A DNA stretch of 51,780 nucleotides, taken from Candidatus Fermentibacteraceae bacterium. Lineage in GTDB: Bacteria > Fermentibacterota > Fermentibacteria > Fermentibacterales > JCC-6. Shown here in pieces: positions 48,122 through 51,579 of the stretch. The position numbers and the translations under genes were made by a program. Every line of letters begins with the position of its first letter. Within the stretch, counting starts at the first letter, position 1. The stretch is from the NCBI GenBank assembly GCA_016936235.1, contig JAFGPK010000070.1, positions 1 through 51,780 on the forward strand, written 5' to 3'. Below the pieces are notes generated by a model. That model ran no database searches and had not been told where the DNA came from. It saw only the letters and a program-made list of their open reading frames with translations.

Positions 48122-48904
48122 ATGAGATCACTAGGATATTTACTGGCCGCCGGACTCCTGGCGGCCCTTGCCTGCACCGGTGAGCCCAGCGCCTCCGCAC
48201 AGCCCGGGATCGAGATCGGCGTGATCACGGACTGCCTGCCCTCGCCGGGGGAAACCGTAACCGGCCTGGCGTTCGGAGGAGGATGGTTGTGGGCGGTGGA
48301 CTCGTCAACCAGGACCGTCTTCAGGATGGATCCGGCCACCGGAGAAGTGGATGGGTCATTCCCCTGCAGCCTGCCGAACTCGTACAGGACCACGGGTCTG
48401 GCCTACAGCAGCGAGAATGCCATGATCCTGGTGGGACTCTGGGATTACGGATACAACGGTTATGTATACCAGTACTCGCTATCCGGCGAACTCATCGGTT
48501 CCATGAGCATGTGCGGGGGTTGAGGCAATCCTGTCTCGTCGGTGACGGGACTGGCTGTTCACACTGACTACCTCTACCTTGCCTCCAGGTCACAGAGCAG
48601 GACATACAGGTATTCCCTTCCCGGTATCTACGGCATGACCAGCAGTACGCCCTTCGGAAGGACCAGCAAGACCTGGGATATCGCCCGTGACCTCCAGGGG
48701 GGCATATGGGCTGCCATGGACAGCGGCGGGTATTCCGTCGGATGCTTCGACTCCGGAGGCGACATGGTGGCCGGTATCAGCACCGACCTCGTCTCCCGGG
48801 CGATGGGAGTGGCCATGGACGATGACGGCACACTCTGGGTCAGCAATAACGATGACGGGATGATATACGGGATAGACGTCTCCCGGGATGAGACCGGGGA
48901 CTGA
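48122..48904 (+). pseudogene. Lipoprotein, beta-propeller-like, interrupted by one in-frame UGA
   Basis: A 259-codon sense frame from ATG 48122 to TGA 48902 broken only by TGA at 48521-48523. The N-terminus MRSLGYLLAAGLLAALACTG is a lipoprotein signal. Both halves have WD/NHL-like beta-propeller character: TVTGLAFGGGWLWAVDSSTR, FRMDPATGEVDG before the stop, and SVTGLAVHTDYLYLASRSQS and GVAMDDDGTLWVSNNDDGMI after it. The repeated 'VTGLA' units on each side show one original protein. The text at the break is MCGG-stop-GNPVSSV. Explanations are a nonsense mutation (TGG to TGA is one step), an assembly error, selenocysteine or readthrough. UGA is a normal stop elsewhere in this window. Confidence 0.8.
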
Positions 48905-48942
48905 GGAAGACGAGCGCACATCCACATGAACCGGAGATGACG

Positions 48943-50331
48943 ATGCGAGAATGTATTTACGGTATCGACGCCATGGTCCCGCTCCTCAGCGGCAGGACAG
49001 TCCGATATGTGAACCTCGACAATGCCGCCAGCACCCCCCCCATGAAATCCGTGGTCAGGGCCATATCGGAGCTGGCTCCCTACTACTCCAGCGTTCACAG
49101 GGGGACCGGGTTCAAGTCCAGGCTCTGCACCGACGCGTACGACCAGGCCCACGAGATAATCGGGGAGTTCGTGGGCGCCGACCTGCGGTCCAACACGGTC
49201 ATTTTCGTAAAGAACGCAACCGAAGCCATCAACAAGCTTTCACACAGGTTCGTCGCCCCGGAGGGTTCCTTCGTGGTGACCACGAGGATGGAGCACCATT
49301 CGAATGACCTTCCGTGGCGTGACCATTTCGATACCCTTCATGTTAGGATCGAACCTGATGGAAGGCTGGACGAGGAGCATTACGATTCCATACTCAGGGA
49401 TCATGCCGGCAGGATCGCCCTTGTCGCGGTGACCGGAGCCTCCAATGTGACCGGTTTCATACTGCCGATACACAGACTTGCGGAGAAGGCGCATGCCGCC
49501 GGTGCGCGCATCATGGTGGATGCCGCCCAGCTGGCGCCCCACAGGAAGATAGACATGAAGCCGGACGACGCCCCGGACCACATCGATTACCTGGCCATAG
49601 CCGGGCATAAGATGTACGCACCCTACGGAACCGGCGCTCTTATCGGTCCGAAGGAGGGTTTCCTCGACGGAGCGCCCGATTACTGCGGCGGAGGAACGGT
49701 CCACGTCGTCACTCCCGATGAGGTCTACTGGGCCGGAATGCCCGACCGCGACGAGGCGGGAAGCCCCAATGTCATGGGCGCCGTAGCCATGGCCGCTGCG
49801 GCGAAGACGCTGATGGAAGAGGGAATGGATTCAGTGGCCGAGCACGAGCGGGAACTCACCGAGTACGCCCTGAGAAAGCTGGCCGGGATGGGCGACATAC
49901 TCATCTACGGCGAGACGGACCCGGCACGGGCTTCGGAGAAGGTGGGAGTCATACCCTTCAACCTCCGGGGAACGGACCATGCTCTGCTGGCGGCGGTGGC
50001 CGGTTTCGAATGCGGCGTGGGCGTCAGGAACGGGTGCTTCTGTGCCCATCCCTACGTGGTGGAGCTCCTGCACCTAAAGGACAGCGAGATCTCCAGCTGG
50101 CGGGAGCAGTTCCTCAGGGGTGACAAGACAAGGATGCCGGGCATGGTCCGCATGAGCTTAGGGTGCTACAGCAACCGGGAGGACGTCGACCGTCTTCTTG
50201 AAGCGATCAACATCATAAGGGACCGTGATTACATAGGCGACTACCATCAGATCCCTGAGACCGGGGAGTTCTTCCCGAGAGGGTACACGGATGACTACTC
50301 AGGATACTGGATGTACCCTGATGGGGTATAA
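48943..50331 (+). CDS. Class V aminotransferase (cysteine desulfurase/SufS-like)
   Basis: A 462-residue PLP enzyme. ATG 48943 has GGAG six bases upstream; ATG 48937 is too close to it. Landmarks are VNLDNAASTPPMKSV, the HRGTGFKSRLCTDAYDQAHE segment, FVKNATEAINKLSHRF, MEHHSNDLPW, MVDAAQLAPHRKID and the Schiff-base lysine Lys223 in AGHKMYAPYGTGALIG. The C-terminal VRNGCFCAHPYV segment carries two cysteines near the place of the persulfide cysteine in group II desulfurases. It could be a SufS-like desulfurase, or another class V lyase; no suf or isc partner gene lies next to it. Confidence 0.88.
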   Translation: MRECIYGIDAMVPLLSGRTVRYVNLDNAASTPPMKSVVRAISELAPYYSSVHRGTGFKSRLCTDAYDQAHEIIGEFVGADLRSNTVIFVKNATEAINKLSHRFVAPEGSFVVTTRMEHHSNDLPWRDHFDTLHVRIEPDGRLDEEHYDSILRDHAGRIALVAVTGASNVTGFILPIHRLAEKAHAAGARIMVDAAQLAPHRKIDMKPDDAPDHIDYLAIAGHKMYAPYGTGALIGPKEGFLDGAPDYCGGGTVHVVTPDEVYWAGMPDRDEAGSPNVMGAVAMAAAAKTLMEEGMDSVAEHERELTEYALRKLAGMGDILIYGETDPARASEKVGVIPFNLRGTDHALLAAVAGFECGVGVRNGCFCAHPYVVELLHLKDSEISSWREQFLRGDKTRMPGMVRMSLGCYSNREDVDRLLEAINIIRDRDYIGDYHQIPETGEFFPRGYTDDYSGYWMYPDGV

Positions 50332-50382
50332 TGTTATATGAATATATTATGCATATCCAACCAATTGATTGAGAGGTTAATC

Positions 50383-51579
50383 ATGGATAGAGGAGTCAAA
50401 GCGGCGCTGATACTTGCCATTGCCGCCTTTTTTGCAGCATCCTGCGGCGGTGAGGGCGGACAGCCTGCTATTGGGGCGGATACGACCTCAGTAACTGGAA
50501 CCTCACCCTTCGAAGCGGCTGACAGCGCGGCCCAGGCTGTAATTGCGTGCAGTTACGGCTTCAGGCTCTACGGCACCGGCTCCTTCGCAGTGGAACCAGC
50601 CATGGTGGGGCAGTTCTCGGGCTTTCTCACCGGGAGTTCCGAGTACCCCCTGATCAGGGTCGAGATGGGTAATGACTCCACCCCCGAGGACGGCATCGAC
50701 CCCGAGCCGTCCCTCATTCTGATCTCAGCCGAAGACTCCGCCTACGCATACAACATCTACGATAACATCCTTGAGAAGGGAGCCCTGGAAGAGGGGGGAA
50801 ACGACCTCCTCAGGCCCGTGGCCTACGCCATCATGAACGAGTTCTTCATCGACGGACCCTTCTCAGACGAGATAGGTGCCGACACGGTCTCCTTACAGGG
50901 TACGGAATCGATCGCCGGGATCGATTGTGAGAAATGGCTGGTCACTTATTCCGGAGGCTCCATGGCGGAATGGGCACTGGGAGTCGAGGACCACCTTCCA
51001 AGGAGGGTGGAGAGGTTGATGACCGACAGGGAAGGTTCGCCGGCATCCATAGTATTGGAGCTGAATGATCTGGAAGTCCTTGACGGAATGGATGCTGCTG
51101 TATTCACGCCGGATTTTCCAGGGGACGCTGAATTGATAATCTACAGCGCCTTCCTGACCATCGGTGTCCAGGCCCCGGAATGGACACTGACCGACAGGGA
51201 AGGCTCCATCGTCACCCTGGCCGACCAGAGGGGCAAAATCGTGATACTGGACTTCTGGGCAACCTGGTGCGGTCCGTGTGCAGCGGTCATGCCGGCGATC
51301 CAGCATGTGCACGAGACCTGGCCGGAAGAGGATGTGGCAGTCTACGGCGTGAACGTATGGGAGACCGGAGACCCGGCATCCTTCATGGACGAGAATGGCT
51401 ATACATACGGGCTTCTCCTTAACGGCGACGCCGTGGCCGATGATTACAAGGTATCCGGAATACCCACCATGTACGTGGTAGACCAGCAGGGAAGGATAGC
51501 CTTCGCTGAAGTCGGGGCCAACCCCGATATAGCAGATCTACTGACTGGAGTGGTGGACAGCCTCATCTCAGCTCAGTAG
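50383..51579 (+). CDS. Lipoprotein with C-terminal TlpA/ResA-type thioredoxin domain
   Basis: A 398-residue lipoprotein. ATG 50383 follows GAGAGG by six bases; an earlier in-frame ATG at 50338 only adds a non-signal stretch. The signal ends in FFAASCGG. Residues ~30-255 form a LolA/DUF2092-like lipoprotein-binding type domain, including LQGTESIAGIDCEKWLVTYS. From ~265 a redoxin follows: VQAPEWTLTDREGSIVTLAD, FWATWCGPCAAVMPAIQHVH with the active site W295-C-G-P-C299, and GIPTMYVVDQQG with the cis-proline. It probably reduces or oxidises disulfides at the envelope. Coupling of a LolA-like domain to TlpA is a recurring arrangement in environmental bacteria. Confidence 0.88.
   Translation: MDRGVKAALILAIAAFFAASCGGEGGQPAIGADTTSVTGTSPFEAADSAAQAVIACSYGFRLYGTGSFAVEPAMVGQFSGFLTGSSEYPLIRVEMGNDSTPEDGIDPEPSLILISAEDSAYAYNIYDNILEKGALEEGGNDLLRPVAYAIMNEFFIDGPFSDEIGADTVSLQGTESIAGIDCEKWLVTYSGGSMAEWALGVEDHLPRRVERLMTDREGSPASIVLELNDLEVLDGMDAAVFTPDFPGDAELIIYSAFLTIGVQAPEWTLTDREGSIVTLADQRGKIVILDFWATWCGPCAAVMPAIQHVHETWPEEDVAVYGVNVWETGDPASFMDENGYTYGLLLNGDAVADDYKVSGIPTMYVVDQQGRIAFAEVGANPDIADLLTGVVDSLISAQ

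Follow-up and report, generated by a model that had tools for sequence, protein, structure and literature searches.

The 51,780-nucleotide stretch of DNA analysed here (the window) carries on its forward strand a gene at 48122..48904 whose internal stop codon is, judging by comparative analysis, very probably read as selenocysteine (Sec), so that the gene would encode a selenoprotein. The reading frame runs from an ATG at 48122 to a TGA stop at 48902-48904 and gives 260 residues once a single in-frame UGA (48521..48523, + strand) is read through. The initial annotation had reported this UGA in an otherwise intact open reading frame, in the context MCGG-stop-GNPVSSVTGLA, and had raised both selenocysteine and a one-base change from TGG as explanations. 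Frame and context were found exactly as described. Selenocysteine is clearly preferred over a nonsense change from TGG: the genome has the Sec machinery, paralogues and relatives keep TGA at this codon, and downstream of it lies a SECIS-type hairpin with covarying pairs. The predicted product of this gene, here called the Sec-propeller gene, is an exported five-bladed propeller with Sec at residue 134, in the motif C131-G-G-U134-G. We consider it likely that the gene belongs to a founding, phylum-wide family of exported selenoproteins, in which a five-bladed propeller would carry a Cys-Sec (CU or CxxU) redox centre on a blade-to-blade loop, with Sec as the only form in the sampled genomes and with part of the family exported via type IX secretion.

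Conservation of the internal TGA

With the read-through protein as query, the source genome (2.68 Mb in 117 contigs, 94% complete) yielded four paralogues of 31–43% identity, each with one internal TGA. This TGA falls in one alignment column in all five copies, in the contexts SMCGG-U-GNPVSSV, SLDC-U-GSDLDQ (two copies) and DVYC-U-GSSIYSS. When 146 genomes were searched with a profile, nearly all of the 42 belonging to the order proved to have family members with a single internal TGA, typically several copies apiece; of the loci then fetched, 125 hits to the family, or about 117 distinct rows, have TGA at this column. Cysteine precedes the TGA at position −1 (CU) or −3 (CGGU, CSGU or CDGU, with CPGGU in the copies of genome G099), and the motif is followed by glycine, as C-U-G or C-G-G-U-G. 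The identical TGA, together with the hairpin, is present in the GenBank-named Candidatus Aegiribacteria sp. and Candidatus Sabulitectum silens, the latter placed in Candidatus Fermentibacterota by NCBI taxonomy. An alignment of homologues at this codon had been proposed as a check in the initial annotation, and a conserved TGA column spanning own paralogues and relatives is its outcome.

Viewed in a single window alone, the TGA could be taken for a sequencing error or nonsense mutation in a propeller lipoprotein of the ordinary kind, given that a sense codon (originally TGG, or TGC/TGT) lies one base away. The codon is, however, shared by the four paralogues, by about 41 separately assembled genomes and by the named GenBank MAGs, and the frame is intact beyond the TGA. 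Trp occupies this position in no homologue found, which leaves the proposed TGG change unsupported. Since the TGA is kept in four paralogues and more than 100 homologues, chance or sequencing error is ruled out, and the nonsense mutation was rejected as vanishingly improbable.

Sense homologues account for 15 rows in the tree, forming two clusters that lack the Cys-Sec pair. Cys in place of the TGA, a usual supporting sign of Sec and not a strict requirement, was seen in none of the homologues found, which counts against the selenoprotein reading; a Cys replacement at the Sec position was rejected, the sense homologues being these two clusters without the motif.

Selenocysteine machinery and the use of UGA

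The genome search for selA, selB, selC and selD suggested in the initial annotation returned selA, selB, tRNA-Sec and a Sec-type selD. The selA gene (510.7 bits) immediately precedes selB (318.9 bits; C3:7780-9645), the tRNA-Sec has the anticodon TCA (UCA in RNA), and selD has an in-frame TGA at its own active site, CAG-TGA-AGK; the selD locus (G000:C40:87082-88008, L174) is thus a selenoprotein gene itself. Across the order, selB was over the cut-off in 35 of 42 genomes and tRNA-Sec was present in 36 of 42, several of the misses falling in incomplete assemblies. Genome G012, of the same order, had no TGA-type member in the profile search, no selB over the cut-off and no tRNA-Sec; this genome is 73% complete, and TGA-type members and Sec machinery have possibly been lost jointly.

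UGA is a sense codon at this site, as it would also be if a changed genetic code or a suppressor tRNA made it specify a standard amino acid (Trp, Gly or Cys). In favour of such a reading, insertion of Cys or Ser by unusual tRNA-Sec-like tRNAs is known. Elsewhere, however, UGA serves as an ordinary stop: most genes in the window terminate with it (24 of 39 main ORFs), and the tRNA-Trp anticodon is CCA. On these grounds genome-wide UGA recoding was rejected. Readthrough is moreover tied to the covarying hairpin, and with selA and selD present Sec is what the tRNA would be expected to carry, making a standard amino acid at this position highly unlikely.

A SECIS-type hairpin downstream of the UGA

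The UGA is followed, in the order 5'-GGCAATCCT-GTCTCGTC-GGU-GACGGGAC, by a bSECIS-type hairpin (48533..48551, + strand). Eight pairs join 48533-48540 with 48544-48551 and close a GGU apical loop (48541-48543) at a distance of 17 nt from the UGA; folding of the 42-nt stretch with the hairpin gives an MFE of −14.5 kcal/mol. The bSECIS model specifies a loop of 3–9 nt with G at either or both of its opening positions, a stem of 4–16 bp, a distance of 16–37 nt from the UGA and an MFE of at most −7.5 kcal/mol (PMC13188914), and the hairpin here conforms to it in spacing, loop and stem length, as does the 42-nt stretch in energy.

A different stem, CCTGTC/GACGGG, had been drawn in the initial annotation, with the caveat that its loop began nearer the UGA than the usual SECIS range. 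This stem is drawable (48530-48535 with 48544-48549) and has its 3′ arm in common with the conserved helix, but its register is shifted and is not the conserved one, and it was rejected as the SECIS element in favour of the eight-pair helix. The concern over distance arose because the wrong register had been chosen, and falls away with the conserved loop.

Nearly all TGA sites of the family have a hairpin of 6–11 bp 17–25 nt downstream, with an apical loop that is mostly G-G-Y. Under a family rule comparable to the bSECIS model (a perfect stem of at least 6 pairs and a hairpin energy of at most −5), hairpins were found in 115 of 121 distinct contexts, whereas the rate was 7.4% in random stretches and 7.7% downstream of other TGA triplets; the other six contexts fail this strict rule. 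Covariation was analysed in 44 sequences of no more than about 87% similarity, with the protein alignment and not the structure as anchor. Helix cells were paired in 92.6% of cases, against 66.0% when shuffled and at most 56.5% when slid, and both-side changes fell in 79 helix cells against 23 when shuffled, the shuffle controls being inflated by shared ancestry. Six of the eight pairs vary on both sides. In the gene's codon alignment the helix ranks first in pairing among 4550 possible 8-bp hairpins (z 6.2); by double changes alone it is not first, as poorly paired registers in variable stretches outscore it. An Rfam scan of the window gave nothing at gathering thresholds.

Predicted structure and export of the Sec-propeller

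An AlphaFold model built with three sequences predicts a propeller of five four-stranded blades (20 strands), with a pLDDT of 81.6, a pTM of 0.81 and low confidence for residues 1–28. The model and a fold search back the earlier description of the protein as propeller-like: the best PDB matches include glutaminyl cyclases, with TM-scores of about 0.7 at 13–17% identity, alongside other propellers. Pfam gave nothing above cut-off on the protein, with weak propeller-type matches (DUF6923 and others). In the model, residues 131–134 sit between strands 124–129 and 141–147, placing Cys131 and Sec134 on the loop by which one blade's outer strand leads into the inner strand of the following blade. 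This loop may face the central channel.

An ORF starting from GTG 48542 exists, and translation might in principle stop at the UGA and restart there, yielding a two-piece propeller with the hairpin acting as a translational control element. Against this, the combination of a Cys-UGA-Gly motif and a G-G-Y hairpin specifically matches Sec insertion, and in the model the chain folds without a break into a single propeller, the UGA falling in an internal loop. We regard a restart as very improbable and retain readthrough with Sec.

The protein is probably exported, and here as a lipoprotein, to judge from its N-terminal sequence: a putative signal peptide (48122..48175, + strand) ends in a probable lipoprotein cysteine (C18). 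The lipoprotein assignment of the initial annotation is plausible: of 14 CGGU members without a tail, the group to which this protein belongs, 11 have a lipobox-like Cys at the end of a signal-like stretch. The lipobox of this protein is, however, imperfect. Such a Cys is almost never present in members with longer C-terminal parts, and the paralogues in the same genome show matches to type IX sorting domains, in two cases above the cut-off.

Gene neighbourhood and proposed function

The Sec-propeller gene is followed after 32 nt by a gene for a class-V aminotransferase/SufS-like cysteine desulfurase (48937..50331, + strand; PF00266, E 1.6e-75; TIGR01979 below cut-off) and, 6 nt further on, by one for a TlpA/ResA-like thioredoxin-fold lipoprotein with a WCGPC motif (50338..51579, + strand; PF00578, E 5.5e-23). 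The SufS-like PLP enzyme gene adjoins the Sec gene in all eight relatives checked, and the TlpA-like gene comes next in those whose stretch reaches far enough; positions 48937-51579 thus hold a conserved pair after the Sec gene. The paralogues in the same genome lack this neighbourhood. The TlpA-like lipoprotein is a probable partner of the Sec-propeller. The SufS-like enzyme is presumably cytoplasmic, making a shared pathway with an exported propeller uncertain.

From the conserved UGA, the hairpin, the machinery, the family spread and the neighbourhood, Sec insertion itself almost certainly takes place. SelB with Sec-tRNA would bind the hairpin just 3′ of the UGA, which would then be decoded as selenocysteine instead of terminating translation. 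After export, here probably as a lipoprotein, the protein would fold into the five-bladed β-propeller, in which a reversible selenenylsulfide probably links Cys131 and Sec134 (a CGGU motif, with CU in its place in other paralogues). The exported pair could cycle between selenol/thiol and selenenylsulfide states, and would give the protein an extracytoplasmic site for redox or metal/sulfur chemistry. In this subfamily the likely reductant is the TlpA-like thioredoxin lipoprotein encoded downstream.

Motif and neighbourhood tilt us modestly towards redox chemistry of the Cys-Sec pair. A serious rival, which we hold to be possible and less probable, is that Sec and Cys bind a metal (for example Hg or Cu) or a selenium or sulfur species, in a role related to the SufS-like neighbour. 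CU motifs occur in metal- and organometal-related selenoproteins, namely the MerB-like SaoL, HgcA and MbdU (PMC13188914, Table 1), and the SufS-like gene itself would suit such a role, whereas the CxxC thioredoxin of the TlpA type in the gene cluster would favour thiol/selenol redox. The habitats of relatives are rich in sulfide and polysulfide, for example Mahoney Lake (PMC4846661), which fits and does not decide the matter.

Relation to known systems and distribution of the family

The decoding is canonical: bSECIS-decoded bacterial selenoproteins of the Escherichia coli formate dehydrogenase type likewise combine a UGA with a G-G-U-loop hairpin about 17–20 nt after it and the presence of selA, selB, selC and selD. 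The protein differs from that type in its unrelated sequence, its propeller fold and its occurrence as several paralogues per genome across most of the order. Catalogued families such as GrdA (CxxU) and SaoL, HgcA and MbdU (CU) likewise have Sec with a nearby Cys (PMC13188914, Table 1). The protein family is new relative to the 2026 catalogue and to NCBIfam: none of the 119 prokaryotic selenoprotein families catalogued, compared by description, is described as a β-propeller (PMC13188914), and the selenoprotein models of NCBIfam 20.0 gave no match to Sec-propeller proteins. A search of the openly accessible literature for Fermentibacter(ota) and selenoproteins together gave no paper among the matches listed.

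Glutaminyl cyclases are five-bladed propellers and the closest solved folds (PDB 3mbr, 2iwa and 3nol), but their identity is low and function is not transferable; these enzymes are not, to our knowledge, characterised by a Cys-Sec motif. SBP1/methanethiol oxidase is a propeller-type protein with a reactive Cys and a link to selenium and sulfur, and is not Sec-encoded; no sequence relation to the Sec-propeller was found here.

The family adds to the selenoproteins a fold not described in the current catalogue, mainly in the uncultured phylum Fermentibacterota. Most genomes carry several copies, paralogues bear type IX secretion tails, and a Cys version was not seen. Default annotation cuts each gene at the UGA, so that more than 100 genes would be misread as truncated or as pseudogenes. 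Concrete tests of Sec insertion and of the chemistry of the exported Cys-Sec pair become possible.

Among 386 genomes sampled across the domain, strong matches were confined to this order and to G099, with one weak match in G424. G099 belongs to another phylum, has tRNA-Sec and carries three such genes with HCPGG-U, which could reflect either lateral spread or deep ancestry. Each of these propeller genes (G099:C1; L169, L199) has a candidate SECIS hairpin, and two of the three are arranged in tandem. A second, partial Sec-propeller of the window type is present in G016 (G016:C33, L188, 1443-1703), about 1.5 kb upstream of an intact copy.
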